Shown: in pieces, positions 2,484 through 63,243 of the stretch | Layout: each line of letters begins with the position of its first letter | How positions within the stretch are numbered: the stretch's first letter is position 1 | NCBI GenBank assembly: GCA_020152595.1 | Contig: JAIGNY010001459.1 | Coordinates: forward strand, 1,842,001-1,906,000 | Direction of reading: 5' to 3' | Origin: Chiridota heheva | Lineage: Eukaryota; Echinodermata; Holothuroidea; Apodida; Chiridotidae | DNA: 64,000 bases | Position numbers and translations under genes: made by a program | The notes under the pieces: generated by a model | Database searches by the model: none | Told to the model about the DNA's origin: nothing | Seen by the model: the letters and a program-made list of their open reading frames with translations, nothing else

Positions 2484-5158
2484 CAATTGTTTGTTTGTTT
2501 GATGAAGGCTTTATGGCACCACAAAACTAAGGTCAAACTGTGCCTGAGAGGTCAGATCATTCTAGAGGTAGGAAGTAAAGGAAACAGGGGGAGAATGAGA
2601 GAAATTTAGAGACAAAAGGTCAGAAAGCTGTGATCGTGAGGGGAGGTGCATGGTTGAAACAAAACAAAGTAGAGAGGGGGTGGAAGAGGAGAATTGAATA
2701 TGGTCGTAGAGGGAGGCATGATGAAGGAAGGAGATAATTTTATTTGCAGGATTTTTCTAGAACTCAGCAATTGAGTTGTAGGGAGCGAGGGAAGCTCTGG
2801 GAGGGTTTTACAGGGGGCAAGCAAGGAGAACGTGATGGATTGTGAGGGTGCAATGGCAATTGTTGCAGAGGAGTTGGGGGAGCCAATACGGAGGTGGGAG
2901 TGGGTGAGATTAGTGTGACCAATTCTAAGACGGTTAATATGAACGTTGTCAATACGAGAGAGGTTGTTGATGGTGGCTTTGATCGGAATTGTGGGCTGGA
3001 TGACATAGAGTTTGTTATCAATTTGGGACTTCCATGAGGTTTGCCAGCGGTCCCGAACAAGGGAAGCGATAAGCGGTGTGATGTCAGAGAGGGTTTTGGG
3101 AAAAGGGGCAGGGAGGAGGGTGAGGGCAAGCTTAGCGGCTGCATCAGCCCTGTCACTACCCGGGATGCCAACATGGCTGGGTATCCAGAAGAAAAGAATA
3201 CTTTTTCTGCAGAGGGTGGGAGAAAGGAGTTTGCGGAGAAGGAGGTGGCATGTGAGGTTATCCCATTTAAGGTTGAGTAAAGAAGTAAGAACAGCCTTTG
3301 AGTCGAAGAAAAGAAAGTGGCCGAGCGGGGAGTACTCAATAAAGTTGAGGGCAAGGAGAATGGCCTTAGCCTCGACTGAAAAGATGGATGAGTAGTCGGG
3401 AAGTCTGCTACTGAGGGTAATGTCTTGGATGACTGCAGCAGCAGCTGTCTTGTTGCCCTCCTTGGACCCATCAGTATAGATGGAGGTGTAATTTGAAAGT
3501 TGGTCTTTGACTTGGTTGTGGAGATTGATAAAGAGGTTAGGATGGGTTTGAGCTTTGTGATGAGTGGAGAGGCCCAGGTGGACAGAAGGGAGAGGGGTGG
3601 CCCAAGGAGGAAAAGCGGGCCAGGAGAAGGTGCCGAGAGTGGTGGGTTTGATGCCGAGATGGAAGAGGTCTGATTTAATGCATAAGCTGAAGGGAGGGGA
3701 TAGGGTTTTAGTCCTATCAAAGAGGGTGGAGAAATTTGGGTACCTAATGAGGTTGTAAACAGGGTTCTGGGTGTTGGTGAGGACCCTAAAAGCATAGGAT
3801 AGGCTAAGCTTTCTATATCTAAGTAGAAAGGGGGGTTCGTTGGCTTCAACATGAAGGCTGGTGATTGGGGGGTCCTGTAAGCACCTAGACAAAGCCTGAG
3901 GGCTTCATTTTGGATGGTGTTGATGTGGTTGAGGTATGAGTTGTGCGCGACACAGTAGACAATATTTTGAGGAGAGCAAAGCGGTTCGCACCCCAAGTGG
4001 TGTTGGAGAGGAGTCTGAGGAAGCTGTTGCATTTCAGTTTCAGGTTGGTGATGTGTTGCTTGTAGGTAAGCTTAGGGTCTAGAGTTAGACCCAGGAACTT
4101 TGTGTGTTCAACTTTTGGGATGCGATTACCATTGAGCACAAAGTTCGGGTTGGGGTGGAGGTTGTTGAAATGACAAAAGTGCATGCAGACTGTCTTGTCT
4201 TTGGAGAATTTAAAACCGTTTTTGTTGCTCCAGTCTTGCAGCTGGTCGAGGCTGGTTTGGAGCCTACTTTCAACAATAGGAAGGCTAGGGGAGGAGTAGA
4301 AGATGGTGAAGTCATCCACGTATAAGGTACGTTTGATGTTGAGGCCAAGGTTATCCGCGATGTCATTGATGCTCAGGTTGAAGAGAGTGGGAGAGAGGAT
4401 GCTGCCTTGGGGAACACCCTCTTTTTGGGGGTACGGGTTGGAGAGGGTGTGGCCAATACAAACTTGGAACCGCCTGGATGAGAGGAAGTTTTGAATAAAG
4501 ATGGGGAGATGGCCTCTGAGGCCAATGGTGTGAAGTTTGCGGGTAATGCCGTATTTCCAAGTAGTGTCGAAAGCTTTCTCAAGGTCAAAAAATATGGCAA
4601 TGAGGTGTTCCTTTTTTGCAAAGGATTCACGGATAGTGGTATCGAGTGTAATTAACTGGTCTAGGGTATTGCGACCTTTTCGGAAGCCCCTTTGGTCAGG
4701 GGAGAGGATTCTGTTGGTCTCCAGAAGCCAGTTTAGTCTCTGATTAATGATCCTTGCCATAATTTTACAGAGACAGCAAGTTAGGGCGATGGGGCGGTAG
4801 TTGGAGGGGTCGGTACTGTCTTTTCCCGGTTTAAGGACGGGGATGACAATAGCTGTCCTCCATATAGGCGGAAAGGAGTGTGAGGTCCAAATGTTGTTAA
4901 AGATTGTGAGTAGGGTAGTGGTGGCCTTGATGGGGAGGTGTTTCAGGAACTGGTAGGGGATGTTATCTGGGCCCTTGGAGGTACAGCCAGCGCCGTGGAT
5001 GGCTAGGTTTAATTCAGAGAGGGTGAGAGGGGCGTTGTAGCTTTCGGAGTTGTCGGAAGGAAAAGTGATTTTCCGGGCTTCATCAGAAGCTTTTTTGGTT
5101 TTGAAGGCATTGGAGTAGTTGGTCGAAGATGAGATGTTGCTGAAAGTGGCATAGTCAA
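2484..5158 (-). mobile_element. 5'-truncated I-superfamily LINE
   Basis: Non-LTR retrotransposon on the minus strand. The 3' end is a short CAAA-type tail (read as TTTGTTTGTTTG at about 2488 on the plus strand). It carries reverse transcriptase followed by RNase H, an order typical of I-superfamily LINEs, and lacks ORF1 and most or all of the endonuclease, so it is 5'-truncated. The sequences beside it (about 2440-2483 and 5159 onward) match the continuous hAT-like element at 24900-25940, so it inserted into an older copy of that element. A shorter copy of the same family lies at 41829-42478. Confidence 0.9.
2606..5158 (-). pseudogene. Reverse transcriptase-RNase H polyprotein, frameshifted
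   Basis: Dead LINE ORF2. Reading right to left, the RT domain is open for about 400 codons. It shows GPDNIPYQFLKHLP, a PSNYRPIAL block, FRKGRNTLDQL, the FDLEKAFDT aspartate block, EGVPQGSILSPTLFN and the catalytic LYVDDFTIFY. The frame breaks near 3966 and again near 3872. After that an RNase H domain is readable at about 3480-3120, with YTDGSKEG, an SVEAKA glutamate, FDSKAV and SDRADAAAK, so all four acidic residues are present. The first few residues of the open frame (before 5158) are flanking DNA. RT and RNase H would have made and processed cDNA of the element. The two frameshifts show this copy is inactive. Confidence 0.9.
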
Positions 5159-6065
5159 GTCTTGCCATTGAAAATCAATATACTCATGATTCAAATCACA
5201 CGCATATTTGGCTGACAAAATTCCAATCAATGACTTTTGCAAACTGTAAACCTGATTAGCATAATCTTTTTTACATGTGAGAATCACAAATGCGCAGTAA
5301 TCACCTATGAATGAGGATATTTTGCACTTTGATTCGCCGAAATCTGAGTAACTTGTAAAAATGCACCGCGAATGTTGTGGCAGTAAACAGTGAACTGGTG
5401 AAACTAACAATAGGCCATAATGTAAGGCTTTAATCCTACTCAGTCAAGACCTGTTTTATTAGCTGCTAAATCGACCTAAAAAAAACCACACAGTCAAAAT
5501 ACTAGAATCGTGACAATCAGTACATTTACATGTAAATATTACCTGATGAGTCAAATAAATTTTGCAAGAAAGAAAAACTATTGCAAAATAAACTGAAATT
5601 CTGCATGCTTTGCAAAGATGGCTACCATTTTTTCCAGAGGACTGATATATTAGCAATACTTCCGGGGTGACGTAGTTTTGAAATGTTTTACAGCGAGGTA
5701 TCTTAGTATGCAAGATCTTCACAGTAAAAGCCCTAGTTAGTACAGCAAAAAAGTTATGTAATGTTGAGATTAAATGACATTAAAGGAACTTTTCTGTTCT
5801 TTCTAAACTAAACTTCCATTTTCTAATTTATCCTGTAGAAGTAAACAATTTAAGATTTAGGAAGCAAAATTCCAGCGTCTTTTTGGGCAATGGAGTCAAT
5901 ACTTTTGCCATACTGGTTGCGCGATTTTTTTACCTAGCATCGTAAATTGGAGGAATTTTGGTGTACTTCCAAAAATTACTGCACTAAATGCGTGTAAACA
6001 ATACACGCTCGCTTTTTTGGTGTGTACAGGTTTACTAAAATCCCTAAACGTTCACAGCTTTATAA
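5159..6065. mobile_element. hAT-like non-autonomous element, right part
   Basis: Matches 25015-25940 in the same orientation along its whole length, including GATTAGCATAATC, ACAAATGCGCAGTAATCACC and the end ATCCCTAAACGTTCACAGCT. It ends at the same inverted-repeat terminus as that copy. The left part, near 2440-2483, is separated from it by the I-like LINE. No clear target-site duplication was found for this copy. Confidence 0.75.
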
Positions 6066-11340: not shown

Positions 11341-11730
11341 GTACCGGTACTTGTAATTAATGACAGCCAAGATGTGAATACCGGTACTTGTAATTAATGA
11401 CAGCCAAGATGTAAATACTGGTACTTGTAATTAATGACAGCCAAGATGTGAATACCGGTACTTGTAATTAATGACAGCCAAGATGTGAATACTGGTACTT
11501 GTAATTAATGACAGCCAAGATGTGAAAACCGGTACTTGTAATTAATGACAGCCAAGATATGAATACTGGTACTTGTAATTAATGACAGCCAAGATGTGAA
11601 TACTGGTACTTGTAATTAATGACAGCCAAGATGTGAATACCAGTGCTTGTAATTAATGACAGCCAAGATGTGAAAACCGGTACTTGTAATTAATGACAGC
11701 CAAGATGTGAGCTACTAATACCGGTACTTT
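11341..11730. repeat. 37-bp satellite A, about 10 copies
   Basis: Tandem copies of a 37-bp unit containing GGTACTTGTAATTAATGACA and then GCCAAGATGTGAATACC. Variants are mainly A/G at the GAATACCGG step. It lies in the 13.6-kb intron of the minus gene. Confidence 0.95.
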
Positions 11731-12371: not shown

Positions 12372-13482
12372 ACCCATGTGATTCAATATCACTTTGCACT
12401 GATATTCAAGACATGTGATTCAATAACACTTTGCACTGATATTCAGGACATGTGATTCAATAACACTTTGCACTGATATTTAGGACATGTGATTTAATCA
12501 CACTTTGCACTGATATTCAGGACATGTGATTCAATAACACTTTGCACTGATGTTCAGGACATGTGATTCAATAACACTTTGCACTGATATTCGGGACATG
12601 TGATGCAGTAACACTTTGCACTGATATTCAGGACATGTGATTCAATAACACTTTGCACTAATATTCAGGACATGTGATTCAATAACACTTTGCACTGATA
12701 CTCAGGACATGTGATTCAATAACACTTTGCACTGATATTCAGGACATGTGATTCAATAACACTTTGCACTGATATTTAGGACATGTGACCCCAGGACATG
12801 TGATTCAATAACACTTTGCACTGATATTCAGGACATGTGATTCAATAACACTTTGCACTGATATTCAGGACATGTGATTCAATAACACTTTGATTCAATA
12901 ACACTTTGCAATCAATAACACTTTGCACTGATATTCAGGACATGTGATTCAAAATAACACTTTTACACTGGATATTCAGGACATGTGATTCAATAACACT
13001 TTGCACTGATATTCAGGACATGTGATTCAATAACACTTTGCACTGATATTCAGGACATGTGATTCAATAACACTTTGCACTGATATTCAGGACATGTGAT
13101 TCAATAACACTTTGCACTGATATTCAGGACATGTGATTCAATAACACTTTGCACTGATATTCAGGACATGTGATTCAATAACACTTTGCACTGATATTCA
13201 GGACATGTGATTCAATAACACTTTGCACTGATACTCAGGACATGTGATTTAATAACACTTTGCACTGATGTTCAGGACATGTGATTTAATAACACTTTGC
13301 ACTGATGTTCAGGACATGTGATTCAATAACACTTTGCACTGATATTCAGGACATGTGATTCAATAACACTTTGCACTGATACTCAGGACATGTGATTCAA
13401 TAAGACTTTGCACTGATGTTCAGGACATGTGATTCAATAACACTTTGCACTGATATTCAGGACATGTGATTCAATAACACTT
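12372..13482. repeat. 37-bp satellite B, about 30 copies
   Basis: A tandem array of a 37-bp unit that contains GGACATGTGATTCAATAACA and then CTTTGCACTGATATTCA. It is mostly homogeneous, with point variants (TTTAATC, GATGTTC, GATACTC) and a few internal partial copies near 12780-12960. The unit is unrelated in sequence to satellite A or to the array at 56.9 kb, although all three have a 37-bp unit. Confidence 0.97.
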
Positions 13483-13918
13483 TTTCTTTGTTGAACATTT
13501 AGGAGTTTTTGCATTTCAAAGATTGTGAGAGTGTGGGGAAAAGTGACCTCACAGTGTACAATGTGATGTCATAAAGGCAAATCAAATTTTTGATAATTTC
13601 TTTGAAAATTAATTGTCTCTTCCTAAATTACCGGAAGCAGTTCATTTATTGACATAGGGTATAACATACACTTATAAGAACATACTTTTTTCCATTTGCT
13701 CATGAACCTTTAAATACACTTTAAGCAAAAGAAAACAAATGTTTCTGTTTTATAGAAATACAGTACATCGGAATTATCTTGGATCTGCCTTCATGAAATC
13801 ATATTTTACACTGTAAGGTCACTTTCAATACACTCACACAATGTTTGAAATGCAATAACTCCTAAACGTATAAAAGATATCAACATGATTTTTACACTAA
13901 TTTGTTTCTTTAATAAGA

Positions 13919-20027: not shown

Positions 20028-20152
20028 CCTGTCTTGGGGGGCAGCTTGCGTATGTTGGAAAGCAGATTCTCACGGCCAACCTTTCCCTTTTCGCTTGAGA
20101 GGTGCTTGGTCCGCTGCTCGTGCCTCTTACCGTTACAATGCTCGAGGTAATT
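20028..20152 (-). CDS. Minus gene, exon 6: second half of a U1/matrin-like zinc finger
   Basis: A 125-bp exon with acceptor TTTGTTTATATAG and a GTTAGG donor. It encodes NYLEHCNGKRHEQRTKHL and then a basic helix-like tail ending NIRKLPPKTG. Spliced to exon 5, it supplies the two zinc-binding histidines of a C-X2-C-X12-H-X5-H finger, with the HCNGKRH spacing usual for U1/matrin/JAZ-type fingers that bind RNA or double-stranded nucleic acid. The exon has the same length (125 bp), the same phases (0 in, 2 out) and a clearly related protein sequence to the exon at 63119-63243 on the other strand. The function is inferred from the finger class only. Confidence 0.85.
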
Positions 20153-21162
20153 CTATATAAACAAAAGAGTACAAAAGCCCAAATAGACTTTATAAAGCAT
20201 ACACTACCAGGATAAATACTCACAAAAAGTAATGGGAGTATGTACTATGCAGTACGCAATAAAAATTATTTTACAATTGTGAATAGTTGTGGATCAGTGA
20301 TGTCATTTTACCTTTGAATTTAAACTTTTAATATCTCAGAAATAGAATAAGTGTTTGAATTGTTTTGGGTTACCCCCCCCCCCTCTCCTTTGAGATTATG
20401 TCTGAATTTCCCTCAATATTTCCCTACCTATTTGAAGTTTTGGGAACAAAATTCTTCAATTTTTAGGGTTTTGTTTAATTTTTGGCAAATCTCATTCAAT
20501 TTTTGTAATATTTCCTTCATTTTTGCAAAATTTGCTTCAATCGTTGTAAAATTTCCTTAATTTCTGTGATATGTTTCTTCTGTTTTCAGGATATACTGTA
20601 TGTTGCCAAATTTTACCACAATTTTCAATTATTTTACAAACCCTCTCTTTACAATGATAGTTTTTGGACCGTTACATGAGATTCATTCATTTCTGCATTG
20701 TTGGGACTGGCCCCCACTGTCAAATTTCTTCCTTCGCCGCCGCTGACGTAATCACATGTATTTATTTTTCTATGTTTCATAACAAAATAAACATTTGTAA
20801 CAATACCAAACCAAAACTATTTTTTTAGGGGGGAGGGAGAAGTTAGAAAGTAACCGAAGAGATTGATTATTACCAATTCACTGATTTTGCATTTCCATCT
20901 TTCGGATCAATTGTTTCAAACATGTGTGCCCTCCACACTTGAAATATTGCTCCGCAGCCCATGACCTTATTCTTCTCATGACATTTTTTATCTTTTGTTA
21001 AAACTAGAGGGATGTTAATACTTACTCCAACAGAAAGAAACCAATAACTATGATTACAAAACATGAAAACAAAATTATTTGCCATCCCAGATCATTTTCT
21101 TCCAAATTGCAAACTTGATAAAGACTGTTGCAGTATTTACTAAGCTCTGATGGAGATCTTAC
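20153..21162 (-). other. Minus gene intron inside the zinc finger (1,010 bp)
   Basis: The intron lies between the Cys half and the His half of the finger. It holds degenerate AT-rich words (20370-20720) and a poly-C run near 20372. The corresponding intron of the plus gene is 9,999 bp. Confidence 0.8.
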
Positions 21163-21264
21163 CTTGGTGCCTCTACTGATAGTGTTGCACAAGTAGCATT
21201 TCCAATCTACAAGCTCTCGATACTCAAAGTTTTCTGATATACCAATCTGCTTGAAAAGCTTCAT
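21163..21264 (-). CDS. Minus gene, exon 5: first half of the zinc finger
   Basis: A 102-bp exon, phase 0 to phase 0, with acceptor TTTATCTCCAG and donor GTAAGATCT. It encodes MKLFKQIGISENFEYREL, then VDWKCYLCNTISRGTK. The CYLC pair gives the two zinc-binding cysteines, and the intron falls eight residues after the second. The paralogous exon at 53018-53119 is also 102 bp and reads KIGITINFSDRQL then WKCYLCNANCRNKN, so the intron position is conserved. The leading ATG is just a codon after the acceptor and probably not the start of translation, because exon 4 joins in phase. Confidence 0.88.
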
Positions 21265-22210: not shown

Positions 22211-22564
22211 GAAGCATACTTCATCCCCCTTGCAAGACTTTTTCAGAGAAAACAATATTGAAATCATTCATACTGATATTACATGTACTTGTCTTACATG
22301 TATTTAACTGGCAATTTTTGTATTTTTGTTGGTTAAGCAGTTGACTTTCCCTAAGAAAGGAAAAAATCTATAAAACTCCATGGGACTTTCCCAATGGAAT
22401 CCAAGGAAGTACACTTTAGACCCGTCCAACAATATTTCTTAACAATAAAATCATCATTCATGTGATAATTAACAATTAATCTCTTACTAAGGTTGCATCA
22501 TCTTTATTTTTGCTCTTAAATTTCCTCAAATGAAGGATAAATCCATAGCTTTTTTTTTTCTTAC

Positions 22565-23280
22565 AGGAATATTCCCAGGTTTTCTGTAAAATTTTATTTG
22601 AAAGAGCATAGTTTTAGAGCCAATTTGGTACAAAAATCAGGTTGTTATCATATTCCGTTCAGGAGATATGGATTTTTAAAGATTTCCGATTGCATTTTAA
22701 AGTTTTTGTACAGTATGATGAATTCATGTTTGATGATGTCATAGAGACAATTCCATTGAAAATGTTTATGTATCTCTTTGAACGTTAATAGGTTGTTTCT
22801 GTATGATGAGAAACAATTTTCCAAAAGTTATTGAAGTAGGGTATATTTGGCAATGTATATAAATACCTAACTATCATCAATTTATTTTTCTAGCAGGTTT
22901 TACCAATATAAAAAGGATGATAGATTTTAATGAAATACATCAACTTTGTGGGAGAATGTGTTGCTGTGATGTCATACTGAGCCTTTTCCTATTATTTTTC
23001 ATTTATTGGCATTTTTTGTGAACCTTAAAATTTGAATATCTTATGGTTGGAATAACATATCATAACATAACAAGATTATGGGCTAAGAAGGGTTAGTCAC
23101 CCCATAAAAAGCCCAAACAACACCACCACCAAAAAAAAAAATAAAAAATCAAAGATGCCCAGAGTTAGTAAAGACTTTGTTGACTTTGAAATTGTAACAT
23201 AATTTTGTACTAAATTGTTTCTAATATTTTTCTCTTTCTTATGAAAGGTTATAAAAAAACAATGGGAATATTCCTTTAAA
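22565..23280. mobile_element. MITE-like element with GGAATATTCC ends
   Basis: The left end CAGGAATATTCCCAGG and the right end AATGGGAATATTCCTTTAA are inverted copies of each other, about 700 bp apart. The inside is AT-rich and non-coding. Similar GGAATATTCCTTTAA words occur near 16957. The boundaries are approximate. Confidence 0.45.
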
Positions 23281-23284
23281 TAGT

Positions 23285-23700
23285 TGGCAAATGTACTTTT
23301 TGCTTTACATTGCAACAAATCACTCAGGCAAAGATAAAGAGGGTGGTTAACAGGGATAAGTATTCCATGCTGTCCACACAACAGAGGATATTGTGCACTG
23401 TAGCGTGAACAAAGTGGTACCTCTTTCGTGTCTTATCAATTCCCTGGTGTCAGCTGTAGGAAATTATTTACACACCAGCACATATTTTCCAGATTTGACT
23501 GCAGATTTTCAAGAAATTGATGAAAATGAAAATTGCTCTATTTTAGGTATTGCAAACAGTAAATGAAAAACTGAAAACACCCATGTGGAGAATTTCATGC
23601 TCTTCAAGATTGCCTAATTTCAAGTCTTTGGTCAAACACCTCTAACTAGATACATTTAAAAAATGGGAGACAAAAGTTAACAGAAATTTCCCATTTATAA
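23285..23700 (-). repeat. Dispersed repeat, uninterrupted copy
   Basis: The reverse complement matches 53160-53310 plus 54650-54935 on the plus strand, including TTCATTTACTGTTTGCA and AATAGAGCAATTTTCATTTT. This copy has no insert at the point where the other copy holds an L2-like LINE. It lies in the intron between exons 4 and 5 of the minus gene. Confidence 0.8.
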
Positions 23701-24224
23701 GATCAACTTCATTGAGCTAAAAATAGACAATTTCCCGTTGTAATTAATTTAATTAGCAGTAATGGCTTCCAACTAAACTCCAACATACAGAACATCCTCA
23801 AGATTTTTGTTCCTGATAAAATCAAGCTTCCTTTGAATTTAGTCACACAAAACTATTTTAAATTTCCAACAATACCAGGTGTACTTTTGAATAACAAAAA
23901 ACCTAAAATTACATTGTCTTTTAAGCTCACGGGGTGGAACAAATATTTTACTTTCTGGGACTAAGTCAAAAAAAAAAAGAATTTAGTGGCCTTTAAAGAA
24001 TTGTTAGTTTAAGAATATATCTTCTTGAATTGACATAACAGTTAAACAAACTTTTAATATATACATAGATTTTCCTTTTTCTGTTTTCCTGCTATTTTTC
24101 TTGATCTAAAAAATTGCTGTGTCCATCGGTCTCGTGGCCCACTGTATTTTCAAAAATAATAATAATGATAAAATAAAAAAGAATAATAAAAAATATACAT
24201 TTACATAAAAAAGAAAAATAATAT

Positions 24225-41197: not shown

Positions 41198-42842
41198 TGA
41201 ATCTTAATCGGTTAAGCTGGCAAAATTTCTTTAAGAGAACATGAACGCCAACCGAGCGTAAAAAGTATGAGTAAAAAATATAAAACAACTAGTTAGCAAT
41301 ACAAGTGTTAGTAAGTTTAGCTTTGAAACAGTTGAGACTTGGTGCATGTACAATGTCTGACAGTAAAGCATTTCAATCCTTTAGTGTGTGAGGGAAGAAA
41401 GAGGGTTAATATACATTCTTTTTAGCATGGGGAACCTGGAAATTAGGGGCATGATTATTCTTGTATTAGTTCTGACAGTGGGGATAAGTTCATCTTTACT
41501 GATGGCGACAAGATTGTCATTGATTTTATATAGCATATGTAGCCGGGTGTTGTATCTTCTTGTTTTAAGCAGGGGCCAATCTAATTTATGAAGCATGTTT
41601 TTTACACTAGATTTATAAGAGTAATCAGCCATACAGAACCTGGCTGCTCTCCTTTGAATAGATTCAAGTCTATAAACAATGCACTGGTGATGGGGGTTCC
41701 AGACTGCAGATGCGTACTCAAGTACTGGCCCGACTAGAGCTTTATAAGCAGTGGATTTAACGTCGGTGGGACAGTTTGAGAGGTTACGTTCTAAGGCTTC
41801 CAGACTGCAGATGCGTGCTCAAGTACTAAGCTTGCCCTTAACCTCCTCCCTTCCCCTTTTCCCAAATCCCTCTCTGACATCAAACCGCTTATCGCTTCTC
41901 TTGTTCGTGACCGCTGGCAAACCTTATGGAACTTCCAAATTGATAACAAACTCCATGTTATCCAGCCCACAATCCCGATCAAATCCACCATCAACAACCT
42001 TTCTCGTATCGACAACGTTCATATTACCCGTCTTAGAATTGGTCACACCCACCTCACTCCTCCCACCTCCTTATTGGTTCCCCAACCCCTCTGTAACAAT
42101 TGCCACTGCATCCTTACAATCCAACACGTTCTCCTTGCTTGCCCCTGTACAACCTTCCCAGAGCTTCTCTCGCTCCCCACAACTCAATTGCTGAGTTCTT
42201 CCAAAAAAATCCTCCAGATAAAATAGTCTCCTTCCTTCAGCATGCATCCCTCTACAACCATATTTAATCCTCCTCTTCCACCCCCTCTCTACTCTGTTTT
42301 TAGTTTTTCCCATGCACCTCCTCTCTCGATCACAGCTTTCTGGCTTTTGTTCTTGAATTTCTCTCATTCTTCCCCTGGTCTCTTTCCTTACTACCTCTAA
42401 AATGATCTGACCTCTCAGGCACAATTTGACCTTCGTTGTCGTGGTGCCGTTAAGACCTCATCAAACAAACAAACAAACTGACCTGACTAGAGCTTTATAA
42501 GCAGTGGATTTAACATCGATGGGACAGTTTGAGAGGTTACGTTTTAATAGGCCAAGTACAGAGTTAGCTTTCTTGGTTATGTTATGTATATGTTTATCCG
42601 ATCTAAGTTTATTATCAATTTCAACACCTAGGTATGGGTGGGAGTTGACATGTTTTTGTGGTTGGTTGCATAAGGTGATTTAAAGCATTTCTTAGAGGAA
42701 ATTGACAGGATGTAGCATTTAGAGGGGTTGAAATTCATTTGCCATTTGTTTTGCCATTGTTCAAGTTTGTTAAGATCATCTTGGAGGATTTGTTGGTCAG
42801 AGGAATTATCAATTGTTCTGTACACAAGGCAGTCTTGTTTCT
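41198..42842 (-). mobile_element. 5'-truncated Rex1/CR1-like LINE, interrupted
   Basis: Minus-strand RT remnants: CLVYRTIDNSSDQQILQDDL, LNKLEQWQNKWQMNFNPSKC, then RTNTRIIMPL and YINPLSS near the end, and a non-coding 3' part (41198-41380). It starts just after the RT catalytic motif, so it is 5'-truncated. An I-like LINE copy lies inside it, and about 100 bp of it is tandemly duplicated at the insertion point. Confidence 0.75.
41829..42478 (+). mobile_element. I-like LINE 3' fragment
   Basis: 5'-truncated second copy of the family at 2484-5158. It reads PFPKSLSDIKPLIASLVRD, DNKLHVIQPTIPIK, INNLSRIDNVH and a C..C..H..C knuckle region (CNNCHCILTIQHVLLACP), then ends GTGCCGTTAAGACCTCATC and (CAAA)n. 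Frameshifted and inactive. Confidence 0.85.
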
Positions 42843-53017: not shown

Positions 53018-53119
53018 CTGGACCTGATAAAGAAGATTGGTATAACCATCAATTTTTCAGATCGCCAACTGGAACCTTGGAAGTGCTATTTGTGCAATGC
53101 TAACTGTCGAAATAAAAAT
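53018..53119 (+). CDS. Plus gene exon: first half of the zinc finger
   Basis: A 102-bp exon, phase 0 to 0, with acceptor CCCCTTTTTGCAG and donor GTAAGTTTC. It encodes LDLIKKIGITINFSDRQL, then EPWKCYLCNANCRNKN. The two cysteines of CYLC are the first zinc ligands; the matching histidines are 10 kb away in the exon at 63119. Length, phase, motif (K.IGI..NF.....L..WKCYLCN) and intron position all equal those of minus exon 5, so the two are paralogous. Residue substitutions are conservative around the finger, suggesting that both genes were kept by selection. Confidence 0.9.
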
Positions 53120-53309
53120 GTAAGTTTCTTTATTTTAAGCTCAACAAAGTTGAGGTTTTAAAATGGGAACTTTCTGTTAACTTTCGTCTCCCATTTTTTA
53201 ATTGTATCTAGTCAGAGGTTTTTGACCAAAGACTTCTGAAATGTGGCAGTTTTGAAGAGCATGAAAATCTCCACATGGGGTGTATTCTATTTTTCATTTA
53301 CTGTTTGCA

Positions 53310-54561
53310 TTTTATCAACCACCTCAATGACAATAATCTGATGGATCCTCTACAATCAGCATACCGTGCTAAACATAGCACGAAGACAGCTCTCTTAAAA
53401 ATTCAGAAAGACATTTTACGAGAAGTGGATTAAAAAAGAGTTGTTTTAGTGGTCCTTTTGGACCCTACCTCTGCATTTGATACTGTAGACCATGCTAATT
53501 TGTTTTGAGGAAGGCTTTAAAGTAACGGGAGTTGCACTTAGATGGTTCTCGTCCTACCTTACAGGATGGAAGAGCTCTGTGAGTGTCTCTAATGGTAATC
53601 AAAACCAAAAACACATAAGTATGGACTCCCTCAAGGCTCCATATTGGGACCCTTGCTGTTCCCGGTTTACACTGCACCACTGGGTGACATTGCAAAACAG
53701 AATGGAGTGAGTTATCATATGTATGCTGACGATTCACAATTATATGTCTCCTGCAACCCTCGCAACACCAGCGACGTAGATAATGCTATGACAAAGTTAT
53801 CCTTCTGTATTGCTGAAATGAGGATATGGATGAGAGTCAATTATTTGAAATTAAATGATACTAAAACTGAATTTTTTATAACTGGTTCACCTCATCTTCT
53901 TAGAATACTACCTGAGTTGGAGATCACTGTTGGGTCAAGCAGTATCAAACCATCCAAATCAATCCGTAACCTTGGTGTCACTTTCAGTTCTTCGCTTTCC
54001 TTATCCAGCCATGTTGACGTTCTACGTTGGTCAATAATTTACCACATCAGAAACCTCTGGCGTATTCGAAGATTTATCGACACAAATACATGTCACCACC
54101 TAGTTCGTGCTTTAATCACTTCCAGGTTGGACTACTGCAACTCACTCTTTACTATTATGTCTCGTAAAGACTTGACAAGATTGCAGCGTCTCCAGAATAG
54201 AGCAGCGTATCTGATATTCGGTGTTGGTAGCAAAACTGATCCAGGTCCATTAATCAGCAAACTACACTGGCTACCAATATCAAAACGGGTCACCCACAAA
54301 ATACTACTCTTTATCTACAAAATCCTGAATGGTGAGGCGCCTAGGTATTTAAAGGATATGATCAAGATAAGAAAATCCACACGTGAACTTAGATCGAGTA
54401 ATGACTCCACCCGACTTCACATACCTATTTTCAATTCTGCTATAGGTGACAAAAGATTTGAAATACTTGCATCCAGATCCTGGAACACTTTACCCACCCA
54501 CATGAGAACTTCTCCATCCACCACAGTATTTAAAAAACTCTTAAAGACCCACTTATTTTGA
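53310..54561 (+). pseudogene. L2-like reverse transcriptase, C-terminal part, broken
   Basis: RT remnants in order: FINHLNDNNLMDPLQSAYRA, LDPTSAFDTVDHA, ALRWFSSYLTGW, YGLPQGSILGPLLF, the catalytic YHMYADDSQLYV, KSIRNLGVTFSSSLS, ALITSRLDYCNSLF, RLQNRAAYLIFG, KLHWLPISKRVTHKIL and LASRSWNTLPTHMR. Stops and frameshifts occur before about 53640 (a stop after REVD near 53430, breaks near 53505 and 53615), after which a single frame of 306 codons is intact. RT would have copied the element's RNA at the target site. The intact stretch suggests a fairly recent insertion. Confidence 0.88.
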
Positions 54562-54650
54562 TATTTTCATTTTGTTTAAGTTTACTTTGTAAGCGCCATG
54601 GTACTTTGGTAAATGGCGTATTTAAGTAACATTTATTATTATTATTATAT
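53310..54650 (+). mobile_element. 5'-truncated L2-like LINE with (ATT)n tail
   Basis: Inserted in the dispersed repeat also present uninterrupted at 23285-23700. The insert starts after TTTACTGTTTGCA and ends with an (ATT)n tail at about 54630-54647 just before CTGAAATAGAGCAATTTTC. The flanks join to the same sequence seen in the uninterrupted copy, so both boundaries are known within a few bases. Confidence 0.85.
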
Positions 54651-55554
54651 CTGAAATAGAGCAATTTTCATTTTCATAATTTGCATGAAAATCTGCAGTC
54701 AAATCTGGAAAATATGTGCTGATGTGTAAATAATTGCTGACAGCTGATTACACCGCAGAAATGATAAGACACCAAGGGAGGTACCACTTTGTTCACACTA
54801 CAGTGCACAGTATTCTCTGTTGTGTAAACAGTATGGAATACTATCCCTGTTAATCACCCTCACTTGTTATCTTTGCCTGAGTGACTTGTTTTCATTGTTG
54901 CAATGTAAAGTAAATTTGCAAACTTTTAAAGTTTTTTGCAGCTTTGGAGTTCCTTCAATCTAAGGTAATAGTAAATGACAAAAAACGTATTGATTTATGA
55001 AACTTTTTTGCTTTTAAAGTTGAAATTTCAAATGAAATACTGTAATTTTCAGAAAAAGTGTCTCCTGGTAATTTGGAGAAGAAAAAAAAGTATGGAATTT
55101 TCCTTCATTTAAGAAAATTTAACAATGAAAAGGAAGATGTAACCTTAGTAAGAGATATCTCGGTAATTATCTTATGAATGATGAAAGTATTTTTATTTAT
55201 AAAAATTGTTGGTGGAATCTGGGCTGTACTTCCTTGGATTCCATTGAAAAAGTCCCCTGAAAATGTATGGATTTTCCCCTTTCTATAGGAAAGTAAACTG
55301 CTTTTAGCCAACAAAAATAAGAACATTGCCAGTTTAATAGTAGTGCTGTCATGACATGTCGATTGTCGTGATATCTCTTTTCCCACGACACCAAGGGCTA
55401 TATCAGGCATAATTATTTGGCTCCGCTTTTTCTTCTTCTTATTTAACAAGTCATTTGCATGGAAGTTATTATATGAACTGACACTTTCATACACACTTTC
55501 ATACATAGTATGCTCAATCAGGGACTGATATCTAGGATGAGACTTCTTATGGAG

Positions 55555-56500
55555 CCTATGGGATGTCATGTGGGACATGGGGTGGAATGTCATGTGTGGC
55601 ATGGGGTGGAATGTCATGTGTGGCATGGGGTGGAATGTCATGTGTGGCATGGGGAGGGATGCCATGTGGAACAGGGTGGAATGCCATGTAGGATATATGG
55701 TGGAATGCCATGCGGGACATAGGGTGGAATGCTTTGGGATGGGATGTCATGTGGGACATGGGATCCCACCCCATTTCAACAAGTCATTTGCATATAATTT
55801 ATTATATGAGCTGATACTTTCATACATAGTATGCTCAATCAGGGACTGTGATAGCTAGGATGAGACTTTTTATGGAGCCTGTGGATTGTCATGTGGAACA
55901 TTGAATGGGATGCCATGTGGGACATGGGGTGGGATGTCATGTGGAACAGGATGGAATGCCATGTGGGACATGGGGTGGGATGCCACTAGTAACACAGAAT
56001 GTGACATAGGTTAGAACACCATGTGTGACATAGGTTAGGAGGCTATGTGGGACATCAGGTAGGAGGCCATGGGGACATATGGTAGGAGGCCATGGGGACA
56101 TATGGTGAAATGCCATGTGAGACATATGGTGGCATGCCATGTGAGACATACTGTATGGTGGAATGCCATGTGAGAGATATGGTGGAATGCCATGTGAGAC
56201 AAGGCATGGGATAGGATGTCATGTGGGACATGGGATGGGATGTCATTTAGGACAATGGATGGGATCCATGTGAGACATAGGGTGGGATGCCATGTTGGTC
56301 ATAGGGTGGGATGCCATGTGGGTCATAGAATGGGATGCCATTCGGGACATGGTGGAATGCCACATGGGACAAGGGATGGGATGTCATATGGGACATGGGG
56401 TGGGATGCCATGTGGGACAAGGGATGGGATGTCATGTGGGACATGGGTGGGTTGCTATGTGGGATATGAAATATCATGTGGGACATAGTGTAAGATGCCA
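55555..56500. repeat. Degenerate GGGATGCCATGTGGGACAT minisatellite
   Basis: Dozens of imperfect units of about 20-24 bp in two blocks (55555-55770 and 55890-56500), separated by a short segment that repeats ACTTTCATACATAGTATGCTC from 55490. Met/His-rich frames on both strands come from the repeat. Confidence 0.9.
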
Positions 56501-56794
56501 TTTTTATAATTGGCCGGGTCATATAATATGGGTGTCAATTTGCATGGGCATGCAAACCATGATGGTATTTACTGTTCTTGTTCCAAAATGATGTGACACA
56601 AAGTTTTAACAGCATGATTTGATAGTTTCATGTGTACACAATAATGTCCTTGATCCTGACAATAGGAAAAAACAACTTTTATCAGCAGCATTACAGTTTT
56701 TAATCATTACAAAATATGTGTCAGATTGCTACGGGAAAATAAGTCAAAAGATTTGCTTTTTTAATTCTATCATATAATATAAGGATCATGTCAG

Positions 56795-56955
56795 ACTTTA
56801 TTCTCCTTTAATTTCTTCAAAATTTCCTTTCAAATTGATTTGAAAAGATGTAAGCTTTTATCTTTGCTGATGATTTTTTTTCTCTGTAGACTTCCAAAAT
56901 AAATCTATCTAGAAAAACATACAAGGAGCAAATAAAGTATCTGACCTATAAATAC
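56795..56955 (+). pseudogene. Decayed duplicate of the second zinc-finger exon
   Basis: The sequence before it (TTGATTTGAAAAGATGTAAG, then CTGATGATTTTTTTTCTCTGTAG) aligns with that before the real exon (TTGATTGAAAAAGGATGTC, CTGATGATTTGTTG, CTTTATAG). After the AG at 56889, the reading TSKINLSRKTYKEQIKYL parallels TYKIHLSANKHKEHMKHL. About 45 of the first 59 exon bases match by eye. Both zinc-binding histidines are lost (H to N and H to Y), and the frame ends in a stop after about 32 codons. The 37-bp satellite starts inside this relic at about 56917. Confidence 0.85.
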
Positions 56956-59900
56956 ACACAAGGAGCAAATGAACTATCTGACTTATAAATACACACAAGG
57001 AGCAAATGAAATATCTGACCTATAAATACACACAGGGAGCAAATGAATTATCTGACCTATAAATACACACAAGGAGCAAATGAACTATCTGACCTATAAA
57101 TACACACAAGGAGCAAATGAACTATCTGACCTATAAATACACACAAGGAGCAAACGAACTATCTAACCTATAAATACACACAAGGAGCAAATGAACTATC
57201 TGACCTATAAATACACACAAGGAGCAAATGAACTATCTGACCTATAAATACACACAGGGAGCAAATGAATTATCTGACCTATAAATACACACAAGGAGCA
57301 AATGAACTATCTGACCTATAAATACACACAAGGAGCAAATGAACTATCTGACCTATAAATACACACAAGGAGCAAATGAATTATCTGACCTATAAATACA
57401 CACAAGGAGCAAATGAACTATCTGACGTATAAATACACACAAGGAGCAAATGAACTATCTAACCTATAAATACACACAAGGAGCAAATGAACTATTGACC
57501 TATAAGTACACACAAGGAGCAGATGAACAATCTGACCTATAAATACACACAAGGAGCAAATGATCTATCTGACCTATAAATACACACAAGGAGCAAATGA
57601 ACTATCTAACCTATAAATACACACAAGGAGCAAATGAACTATCTAACCTATAAGTACACACAAGGAGCAGATGAACAATCTGACCTATAAATACACACAA
57701 GGAGCAAATGATCTATCTGACCTATAAATACACACAAGGAGCAAATGATCTATCTGACGTATAAATACACACAAGGAGCAAATGAACTATCTGACCTATA
57801 AATACACACAAGGAGCAAATGAACTATCTGGCCTATAAATACACACAAGGAGCAAATGAAATATCTGACCTATAAATACACACAAGGAGCAAATGATCTA
57901 TCTAACCTATAAATACACACAAGGAGCAAACGAACTATCTAACCTATAAATACACACAAGGAGCAAATGAACTATCTAACCTATAAGTACACACAAGGAG
58001 CAGATGAACAATCTGACCTATAAATACTCACAAGGAGCAAATGAACAATCTGACCTATAAATACACACAAGGAGCAAATGAACTATCTGACCTATAAATA
58101 CACACAAGGAGCAAATGAACTATCTAACCTATAAATACACACAAGGAGCAAATGATCTATCTGACGTATAAATACACACAAGGAGCAAATGAACTATCTG
58201 ACCTATAAATACACACAAGGAGCAAATTAACTATCTGACCTATAAATACACACAAGGAGCAAATTAACTATCTGGCCTATAAATACACACAAGGAGCAAA
58301 TGAACTATCTGACCTATAAATACACACAAGGAGCAAATAAGCTATCTGACCAATAAATACACACAAGGAGCAAATGAACTATTGACCTATAAATACACAC
58401 AAGGAGCAAATGAACTATCTGACCAATTAATACACACAAGGAGCAAATGAACTATCTAACCTATAAATACACACAAGGAGCAAATGAACTATCTGACCTA
58501 TAAATACACACAAGGAGCAAATGATCTATCTGACCTATAAATACTCACAAGGAGCAAATGAACAATCTGACCTATAAATACACACAAGGAGCAAATGATC
58601 TATCTGACCTATAAATACACACAAGGAGCAAATGAACTATCTAACCTATAAATACACACAAGGAGCAAATGAACTATCTAACCTATAAATACACACAAGG
58701 AGCAAATGATCTATCTGACGTATAAATACACACAAGGAGCAAATGAACTATCTGACCTATAAATACACACAAGGAGCAAATTAACTATCTGACCTATAAA
58801 TACACACAAGGAGCAAATTAACTATCTGGCCTATAAATACACACAAGGAGCAAATGAACTATCTGACCTATAAATACACACAAGGAGCAAATAAGCTATC
58901 TGACCAATAAATACACACAAGGACAAATGAACTATTGACCTATAAATACACACAAGGAGCAAATGAACTATCTGACCAATTAATACACACAAGAGCAAAT
59001 GAACTATCTAACCTATAAATACACACAAGGAGCAAATGAACTATCTGACCTATAAATACACACAAGGAGCAAATGATCTATCTGACCTATAAATACTCAC
59101 AAGGAGCAAATGAACTATCTAACCTATAAATACACACAAGGAGCAAATGAACTATCTAACCTATAAATACACACAGGGAGCAAATGAACTATCTAACCTA
59201 TAAATACACACAAGGAGCAAATGAACTATCTAACCTATAAATACACACAGGGAGCAAATGAACTATCTAACCTATAAATACACACAAGGAGCAAATGAAC
59301 TATCTAACCTATAAATACACACAAGGAGCAAATGAACTATCTAACCTATAAATACTCACAAGGAGCAAATGAACAATCTGACCTATAAATACACACAAGG
59401 AGCAAATGATCTATCTAACCTATAAGTACACACAAGGAGCAAATGAACTATCTAACCTATAAGTACACACAAGGAGCAAATGATCTATCTGACCTATAAA
59501 TACACACAAGGAGCAAATGAACAATCTGACCTATAAATACACACAAGGAGCAAATGAACTATCTGACCTATAAATACACACAAGGAGCAAATGAACAATC
59601 TGACCTATAAATACACACAAGGAGCAAATGATCTATCTGACCTATAAATACACACAAGGAGCAAATGAACTATCTAACCTATAAATACACACAAGGAGCA
59701 AATGAACTATCTAACCTATAAATACACACAAGGAGCAAATGAACTATCTGACGTATAAATACACACAAGGAGCAAATGAACTCTCTGGCCTATAAATACA
59801 CACAAGGAGCAAATTAACTATCTGACCTATAAATACACACAAGGAGCAAATGATCTATCTGACCTGTAAATACACACAGGGAGCAAATGAACTATCTAAC

Positions 59901-62900
59901 CTATAAATACACACAAGGAACAAATGAACTATCTGACCTATAAATACACACAAGGAGCAAATGAACTATCTGGCCAATAAATACACATAAGGAACAAATG
60001 AACAATCTGACCTATAAATACACAAGGAGCAAATGATCTATCTGACCTATAAATACACACAAGGAGCAAATGGACTATCTAACCTATAAATACACACAGG
60101 GAGCAAATGAACAATCTGACCTATAAATACACACAAGGAGCAAATGAACTATCTGACCTATAAGTACTCACAAGGAGCAAATGAACAATCTGACCTATAA
60201 ATACACAAGGAGCAAATGATCTATCTGACCTATAAATACACACAAGGAGCAAATGGACTATCTAACCTATAAATACACACAGAGCAAATGAACAATCTGA
60301 CCTATAAATACACACAAGGATCAAATGAACTATCTGACCTATAAATACACACAAGGAGCAAACGAACTATCTGACCTATAAATACTCACAAGGAGCAAAT
60401 GAACAATCTGACCTATAAATACACACAAGGAGCAAATGATCTATCTAACCTATAAATACACACAAGGAGCAAATGAACTATCTGACCTATAAATACACAC
60501 AAGGAGCAAATGAACTATCTGACCTATAAATACACACAAGGAGCAAACGAACTATCTAACCTATAAATACACACAAGGAGCAAATGAACTATCTGACCTG
60601 TAAATACACACAAGGAACAAATGAACTATCTGACCTATAAATACACACAAGGAGCAAATTAACTATCTGACCTATAAATACACACAAGGAGCAAATTAAC
60701 TATCTGGCCTATAAATACACACAAGGAGCAAATGAACTATCTGACCTATAAATACACACAAGGAGCAAATAAGCTATCTGACCAATAAATACACACAAGG
60801 AGCAAATGAACTATTGACCTATAAATACACACAAGGAGCAAATGAACTATCTGACCAATTAATACACACAAGGAGCAAATGAACTATCTAACCTATAAAT
60901 ACACACAAGGAGCAAATGAACTATCTGACCTATAAATACACACAAAGAGCAAATGATCTATCTGACCTATAAATACTCACAAGGAGCAAATGAACTATCT
61001 AACCTATAAATACACACAAGGAGCAAATGAACTATCTAACCTATAAATACACACAGGGAGCAAATGAACTATCTAACCTATAAATACACACAAGGAGCAA
61101 ATGAACTATCTAACCTATAAATACACACAGGGAGCAAATGAACTATCTAACCTATAAATACACACAAGGAGCAAATGAACTATCTAACCTATAAATACAC
61201 ACAAGGAGCAAATGAACTATCTAACCTATAAATACTCACAAGGAGCAAATGAACAATCTGACCTATAAATACACACAAGGAGCAAATGATCTATCTAACC
61301 TATAAGTACACACACAAGGAGCAAATGAACTATCTAACCTATAAGTACACACAAGGAGCAAATGATCTATCTGACCTATAAATACACACAAGGAGCAAAT
61401 GAACTATCTGACCTATAAATACACACAAGGAGCAAATGAACTATCTGACCTATAAATACACACAAGGAGCAAATGAACTATCTGACCTATAAATACACAC
61501 AAGGAGCAAATGATCTATCTGACCTATAAATACACACAAGGAGCAAATGAACTATCTGACCTATAAATACACACAAGGAGCAAATGAACTATCTGACCTA
61601 TAAATACACACAAGGAGCAAATGAACTATCTGACGTATAAATACACACAAGGAGCAAATGAACTCTCTGGCCTATAAATACACACACAAGGAGCAAATTA
61701 ACTATCTGACCTATAAATACACACAAGGAGCAAATGATCTATCTGACCTGTAAATACACACAGGAGCAAATGAACTATCTAACCTATAAATACACACAAG
61801 GAACAAATGAACTATCTGACCTATAAATACACACAAGGAGCTAATGAACTATCTGGCCAATAAATACACATAAGGAACAAATGAACAATCTGACCTATAA
61901 ATACACAAGGAGCAAATGATCTATCTGACCTATAAATACACACAAGGAGCAAATGGACTATCTAACCTATAAATACACACAGGGAGCAAATGAACAATCT
62001 GACCTATAAATACACACAAGGAGCAAATGAACTATCTGACCTATAAGTACTCACAAGGAGCAAATGAACAATCTGACCTATAAATACACAAGGAGCAAAT
62101 GATCTATCTGACCTATAAATACACACAAGGAGCAAATGGACTATCTAACCTATAAATACACACGGAGCAAATGAACAATCTGACCTATAAATACACACAA
62201 GGATCAAATGAACTATCTGACCTATAAATACACACAAGGAGCAAACGAACTATCTGACCTATAAATACTCACAAGGAGCAAATGAACAATCTGACCTATA
62301 AATACACACAAGGAGCAAATGATCTATCTAACCTATAAATACACACAAGGAGCAAATGAACTATCTGACCTATAAATACACACAAGGAGCAAATGAACTA
62401 TCTGACCTATAAATACACACAAGGAGCAAACGAACTATCTAACCTATAAATACACACAAGGAGCAAATGAACTATCTGACCTGTAAATACACACAAGGAA
62501 CAAATGAACTATCTGACCTATAAATACACACAAGGAGCAAATTAACTATCTGACCTATAAATACACACAAGGAGCAAACGAACTATCTGACCTATAAATA
62601 CACACAAGGAGCAAATGAATTATCTGACCTATAAATACTTACAAGGAGCATATGAACTATCTGACCTATAAATACACACAAGGAGCAAATTACCTATCTG
62701 ACCTATAAATACACACAAGGAGCAAATGAAGTATCTGACCAATAAATACTCACAAGGAGCAAATGGACTATCTAACCTATAAATACTCACAAGGAGCAAA
62801 TGGACTATCTAACCTATAAGTACACACAAGGAGCAGATGAACAATCTGACCTATAAATACTCACAAGGAGCAAATGAACTATCTAACCTATAAGTACACA

Positions 62901-62970
62901 CAAGGAGCAGATGAACAATCTGACCTATAAATACTCACAAGGAGCATATGAACTATCTGACCTATAAATT
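56917..62970. repeat. 37-bp satellite C, about 163 copies, derived from the zinc-finger exon
   Basis: A nearly continuous tandem array of a 37-bp unit containing TATAAATACACACAAGGAGC and then AAATGAACTATCTGACC. The matching stretch of the exon at 63119 is AATAAACACAAGGAGCATAT and then GAAACATCTAACCTC. Recurrent variants (GATCTATC, TCTAACC, TACTCAC, GAACAATC, GGGAGC, CAATTAATAC) are arranged in higher-order blocks. The last units carry GGAGCATATGAAC, closer to the exon than most. Occasional units are one to four bases short. The unit length is not divisible by 3. Confidence 0.97.
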
Positions 62971-63118
62971 CCAGTTTTCTCTTCAAGCAACCTTTCTTAT
63001 TCTTTGTTTTCCATAAGCTAGTGTTTAGTTAGTGGAAGATTATTTTAATTGTACTTCAAAATTGATTGAAAAAGGATGTCAATCTCAACCTTGACTGATG
63101 ATTTGTTGTTCTTTATAG

Positions 63119-63243
63119 ACTTACAAGATACATCTATCTGCAAATAAACACAAGGAGCATATGAAACATCTAACCTCAACTCAAGGAGTGAAAAAAGTGT
63201 ATGACATCATGTCCAAGCTGTTCCTTCTACCAGATAAAAGCAG
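63119..63243 (+). CDS. Plus gene exon: second half of the zinc finger
   Basis: A 125-bp exon with acceptor TTGTTCTTTATAG and donor GTAAGG; phase 0 in, phase 2 out. It encodes TYKIHLSANKHKEHMKHLTS, then TQGVKKVYDIMSKLFLLPDK and SR. Joined to the exon at 53018 it completes CYLC-X12-H-X5-H, the spacing of U1/matrin/JAZ-like fingers. The minus-gene exon at 20028-20152 has the same length, phases and layout (H.....H......KHL followed by a helix ending L..LP). The gene continues off the right edge. This exon is the source of the 37-bp satellite just upstream. Confidence 0.88.

Follow-up and report, generated by a model that had tools for sequence, protein, structure and literature searches.

Many tandem arrays, to our knowledge, no longer show the sequence from which they started, and the loss of that sequence makes models of array birth hard to test. 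Classical minisatellites have units of 10-100 bp in euchromatic arrays of under ~1 kb, as defined in section 7 of PMC5615363, and passages of the same paper describe satellite families seeded by known sequences, namely ribosomal DNA (rDNA) spacers and transposable elements. In the notothenioid antifreeze glycoprotein gene, as the available portions of PMC8622921 (and also of PMC12776774) relate, a 9-nt piece across a trypsinogen intron-exon junction was amplified into coding repeats. Here, we analyzed a stretch of 64,000 nucleotides from the holothurian Chiridota heheva (the window; assembly GCA_020152595.1, contig JAIGNY010001459.1, positions 1,842,001 to 1,906,000 of the forward strand), in which an intron of a predicted zinc-finger gene carries an array of a 37-bp unit. 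Judged by sequence comparison, this array is very probably a large intronic minisatellite that began in a decaying, redundant copy of the zinc-finger exon of that very gene.

The array shares with minisatellites (variable number tandem repeat, VNTR, loci), which arise de novo out of nearby DNA and then expand through slippage and unequal exchange, a unit within 10-100 bp, a single locus in a gene and a block structure within the array. It is unlike them in size, 6 kb (6061 bp) being above the classical limit given in that section, and in that a seed can be identified, a predicted coding exon of which a decayed copy survives at the array start. Seeded satellite families, as far as those passages describe them, likewise grow in tandem from a known sequence, with the difference that here the seed would be a single-copy protein-coding exon and that close copies are confined to one locus. 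Satellites in the strict sense number their units in the hundreds to thousands, lie in constitutive heterochromatin and form long arrays at several or many loci; here, ~164 units were counted at one locus within a predicted intron, and all 158 assembly-wide matches to a 28-base probe lie in one array. Because of the unit length and the single locus inside a gene, the term satellite used in the original prediction gives way to minisatellite, following section 7 of PMC5615363: by definition, the 37-bp array is a large single-locus intronic minisatellite and not a dispersed satellite.

The antifreeze gene is the nearest analogue in the sources available to us. There, too, a short gene piece near an intron-exon border was amplified in tandem, but the repeats of that gene, according to those portions of text, became coding, whereas here coding sequence would have turned into intronic repeats whose unit length is not a multiple of three; this locus would be its mirror image, provided that the array is read as a fossil record of its own birth, a reading to which we lean without great assurance. 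PMC8490949, considered as a further parallel, is not close in the part available. Among the matches listed for a few terms in open-licence full texts, no title or abstract opening describes a satellite or minisatellite born from an exon; as evidence for novelty, this is limited.

Exon, decayed duplicate and array

The array-bearing gene was recognized by two predicted exons on the forward strand that together encode one zinc finger. The first, of 102 bp (53018-53119; found by tblastn with the paralog exon, E = 7.9e-9), encodes the C-x2-C half and ends in phase 0 at a GTAAGT donor; the second, of 125 bp (63119-63243), encodes the H half and contains a unit-like stretch of 37 bp at 63140-63176. 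Spliced in silico, they read C-x2-C-x12-H-x5-H, and the peptide aligns with the Pfam profile zf-met along its whole length (profile positions 1-25 of 25, E = 6.6e-4). We take this profile to be that of the U1/matrin-like C2H2 finger. The same peptide scores 22.5 bits against zf-C2H2_2 (cut-off 26.9), and matches among solved structures are weak (28 distinct sequences up to E = 1, the best at E = 0.0031, CTCF). The intron defined by these exon borders (53120-63118, 9999 bp) cuts the finger in two, so that it is the H half from which the array would have been seeded. Tandem Repeats Finder (TRF) places the array at 56909-62969 on the forward strand, with a period of 37, 164.2 copies and 93% matches; it occupies 61% of the intron and stops 149 bp before the exon (62970-63118), close to the roughly 150 bp first claimed.

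That the unit matches the core of this exon is borne out by direct comparison. The two share 30 of 37 positions without gaps, over the 37-mers starting at 63138-63143, and this is the top match on either strand once the masked array zone (56851-62984) is excluded from the window. The local alignment score of 45 compares with maxima of 29 among 1000 shuffles of the exon and 32 among 1000 shuffles of the unit, so that the observed value, on which the original prediction had agreed to stand or fall, lies above all of these shuffled controls.

The array also begins, as had been proposed, inside a decayed duplicate of the exon together with a piece of intron that retains a polypyrimidine tract and AG. 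On the forward strand, positions 56890-56947 are identical at 45 of 58 sites to the first 58 bp of the exon, and they are preceded at 56813-56889 by a copy of the real intron end (63040-63118, the apparent source), with 57 of 76 ungapped columns identical and four more columns gapped. Across the junction, 56821-56947 aligns to its real counterpart with a score of 94, while 500 dinucleotide shuffles reached 35 at most; under relaxed scoring, the alignment extends to 56813-56947 versus 63040-63176, which none of 500 shuffles reach. Both codons for the zinc-ligand histidines are altered in the duplicate, to Asn and Tyr, and its final 37 bp (56911-56947) serve, in register, as the array's first unit. 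The co-duplicated intron is shorter than the ~90 bp originally given: 77 bp align, and no homology was detected further upstream (365 of 500 shuffles were equally good). To the right of the array, no remnant of the 3' part of the exon was detected (464 of 500 shuffles equally good). No further exon copy was clear in the 5' part of the intron (163 of 200 shuffles as good) or in the first 3757 bp after the exon (200 of 200), and the real exon with its upstream intron end gave one match in the assembly at the sensitivity of that search.

Just upstream of the decayed exon, the same intron holds a second minisatellite, with a 24-bp unit, at 55559-56464.

Paralogs and the order of events

Two related exon pairs provide array-free versions of the gene for comparison. 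Paralog 1, on the reverse strand of the window, has a predicted 125-bp exon with the H half (20028-20152), in the same frame as 63119-63243, and a predicted 102-bp exon with the C half (21163-21264), found by eye beside it. The third paralog lies on the same contig; its 102-bp exon, at C1455:1989201-1989302, was reached from a peptide match at 1989207-1989287 (E = 0.0065) and is followed after 659 bp by a 125-bp stretch with the H half. The C-x2-C-x12-H-x5-H spacing, counted by eye in spliced peptides, occurs in this gene and in both paralogs. The intron between the two half-finger exons measures 1010 bp in paralog 1 and 659 bp in the third paralog, against 9999 bp here, and TRF found no such array in either intron, the only repeat in that of paralog 1 being a 91-bp stretch of a 21-bp unit; the claim that exon 20028-20152 is present without the array thus stands. 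No second exon copy was clear in the paralog introns (116 of 200 shuffles as good for paralog 1; 8 of 200, a borderline value, for the third). In the zf-met scan, which covered this gene and paralog 1, the latter scored 13.1 bits (E = 0.12).

The three pairs (20028-21264; 53018-63243; C1455:1989201-1990086) lie within ~130 kb of one contig, one of them inverted, and form a local gene family. A search of the assembly with the spliced peptide returned eight matches up to E = 10, of which three are in the window (two from this gene and one from paralog 1), one is the third paralog and four are on other contigs (E = 0.83 to 2.9). The two gene regions of the window were also compared by tblastx and blastn. 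DNA shared between the intron of this gene and paralog 1 was considered as a common intron and set aside; the piece examined, 53131-53309, proved to be a dispersed repeat, with 660 candidate places of which 40 were scored and all 40 matched; other pieces common to this intron and the paralog 1 region are 54647-54931 and 55077-55339, and also 23274-23725 and 22301-22561.

The order first put forward, in which the exon precedes the duplicate and the duplicate precedes amplification, agrees with the need of the finger for the exon, with the two array-free paralogs and with the bases that unit and duplicate share against the exon. In a three-way comparison over 37 positions, exon, duplicate and unit carry the same base at 27; the unit sides with the duplicate against the exon at five and with the exon against the duplicate at three, is itself the odd one out at none, and at two all three differ. 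This pattern fits an array that split from the lineage of the duplicate after the exon had been duplicated. The units diverge from their consensus at a mean of 1.5 of 37 positions, far less than the duplicate does from the exon, which suggests that the present array is younger or has been homogenized. Divergence is highest in the last ten full units, with 2.4 changes; the figure is 1.4 for units in the middle and 1.3 for the first ten, among which the duplicate itself is counted.

Unit order carries a record of later growth. Comparing each unit with the one 51 places further on gave 44 identical pairs among 114; the shift with the next highest fraction gave 15 of 99. The longest identical run is ten units, compared with at most five in 100 shuffles of unit order. 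Unit comparison locates the repeated blocks, offset by 51 units or ~1.9 kb, at 59087-62591 on the forward strand; for example, units 60-68 equal units 111-119 and units 93-102 equal units 144-153. Together, these identities and long runs indicate that the array grew partly by the copying of blocks that now lie ~1.9 kb apart. As to the first step, the exon carries ACATCTA twice at a spacing of 36 bp, near the ends of the unit, as well as another 7-bp repeat at 31 bp; such repeats are frequent in shuffled exons at some spacing, and the direct repeat is on that account only suggestive.

The sequence of events that we propose would have begun with a duplication of the intron end and exon start. 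The duplicate, free of selection, would have decayed, and a 37-bp stretch of it would then have been duplicated in tandem, perhaps helped by the ACATCTA direct repeat. Slippage or unequal exchange would have expanded the array, with later growth also by the copying of blocks ~51 units (1.9 kb) apart.

Occurrence elsewhere and alternative origins

The assembly searched comprises 1.1 Gb in 3744 contigs, and the DNA search skips very common words, so that its counts are lower bounds. The 28-base probe, with up to three mismatches allowed, matched 158 times, all within the array and none on the opposite strand, and an identity as a genome-wide satellite was accordingly rejected for close copies. 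A query of 111 bases hit the array at 72 places and one further locus, C1390:912729-912829, which makes 73 in all. The original prediction had named, as evidence that would count against it, the same satellite widespread at loci without the exon; within the animal's own genome, where the comparison was made, close copies are restricted to the array, and the part that did not come out cleanly is this one distant look-alike. An exact 30-base probe had no match in prokaryote or viral contigs, non-animal collections that are uninformative on relatives.

Several observations weigh against an origin of the array in the exon duplicate. All exons are predicted from sequence, and the comparison rests on one assembly of one species. 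Under another scoring scheme, one of 1000 shuffled units equalled the observed exon score. The zf-met score of 20.4 bits is slightly below the curated cut-off of 21.2, and the 125-bp length in the third paralog depends on a weak donor, GTCAAG. The absence of the 3' part of the duplicated exon is unexplained. The direct repeat in the exon is weak evidence, being equalled in 2.9% of shuffled exons at a spacing of 35-38 and in 42% at some spacing. A match between unit and neighboring DNA is, moreover, no rarity: of 60 arrays with at least five copies and a period of 15-150 in the 194 kb examined, 20 were flagged for some match, of whatever kind, to nearby unmasked DNA (4 of 29 in the window and downstream, 2 of 10 around paralog 3 and 14 of 21 around the C1390 locus), which weakens uniqueness of the unit-to-neighbor match as an argument. 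The remaining observations concern the C1390 locus itself. Over 101 bp, the stretch at C1390:912729-912829 shows 75% identity with the query (E = 7.4e-7); its unit resembles the 37-bp unit slightly beyond shuffles of either kind (none of 1000 as good; maxima of 40 to 46 against 48); and the edge of its array is acceptor-like, with 2 of 500 shuffles as good against both the duplicate and the real junction, a post hoc comparison.

The look-alike belongs to an AT-rich array of a 35-bp unit at ~C1390:911325-912950, and it would be a relative of ours if the 37-bp array derived from an older repeat family that landed in this intron and resembled the exon by chance or conversion. The three observations just given speak for that origin, which we nevertheless regard as very unlikely: the C1390 locus was picked as the best of the whole 1.1-Gb genome, one in which AT-rich arrays abound; its unit fits the exon no better than shuffles do (384 of 1000 as good); zinc-finger exon matches within 70 kb of its array are only weak (best E = 0.095); and the probe at up to three mismatches matches the window array only. 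The two arrays may or may not share an origin. A repeat similar to the 24-bp minisatellite (score 98) adjoins the C1390 array, in opposite orientation relative to that array.

A second proposal bears on function and is no alternative origin, namely that the duplicated acceptor and cryptic donors in the array form a regulatory poison exon. The duplicate does keep its AG and pyrimidine tract, the frame from that AG is open for 32 codons before a stop within the array, and the array holds four donor-like GTAAAT sites; both zinc ligands are lost, however, the consensus unit has no GT, and just 22 GT occur in 56948-62969; such a role is very unlikely. Probably, the array is a neutral by-product removed with the intron and is without effect on the gene, as far as sequence allows this to be judged.

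Exonization of a repeat, in which the exon would derive from a pre-existing array, would explain why the two adjoin and resemble each other, but it is extremely unlikely, since the exon supplies the H half of a finger common to two array-free paralogs with matching exon lengths and frame, runs 67 bp past the unit-like stretch and stands apart where unit and duplicate share bases.

Descent from the decaying duplicate of the exon is the reading that we retain. Among the arrays of the window, 12 of 31 rows score at least 36 outside their own mask; 11 of the 12, judged by position, are copies of the same or a neighboring repeat, and only the match of the 37-bp array falls on an exon. The 37-bp array is set apart in that its match is a predicted coding exon and its start a decayed copy of that exon.

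Neighboring repeats and significance

Two other arrays in the window have 37-bp units of unrelated sequence (11342-11710 and 12375-13483), with no seed found in the window, and a 77-bp unit repeated 52 times lies upstream of the third paralog (C1455:1982872-1986875), with no nearby seed. The open frames at 2609-5174 and 41748-42223 resemble parts of a LINE-type (long interspersed nuclear element) retroelement, and over 145 residues they are 63% identical to each other.

The one assembly analyzed gives good support to an intronic array having arisen from a second copy of a predicted coding exon. The starting sequence, the intermediate and the array are all still present next to one another, and two paralogs that lack the array are available for comparison. 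We find it somewhat probable that an array of several kilobases descends directly, and still traceably, from the exon, that the locus is a fossil record of array birth and that redundant exon copies can be the starting point of intronic arrays and of longer introns. The case illustrates how an intron can lengthen by way of such a copy, to 10.0 kb here against 1.0 and 0.66 kb in the paralogs. If true, the birth of an array from coding DNA would be recorded in order within one intron of C. heheva, as the decayed copy, the array and the living exon.

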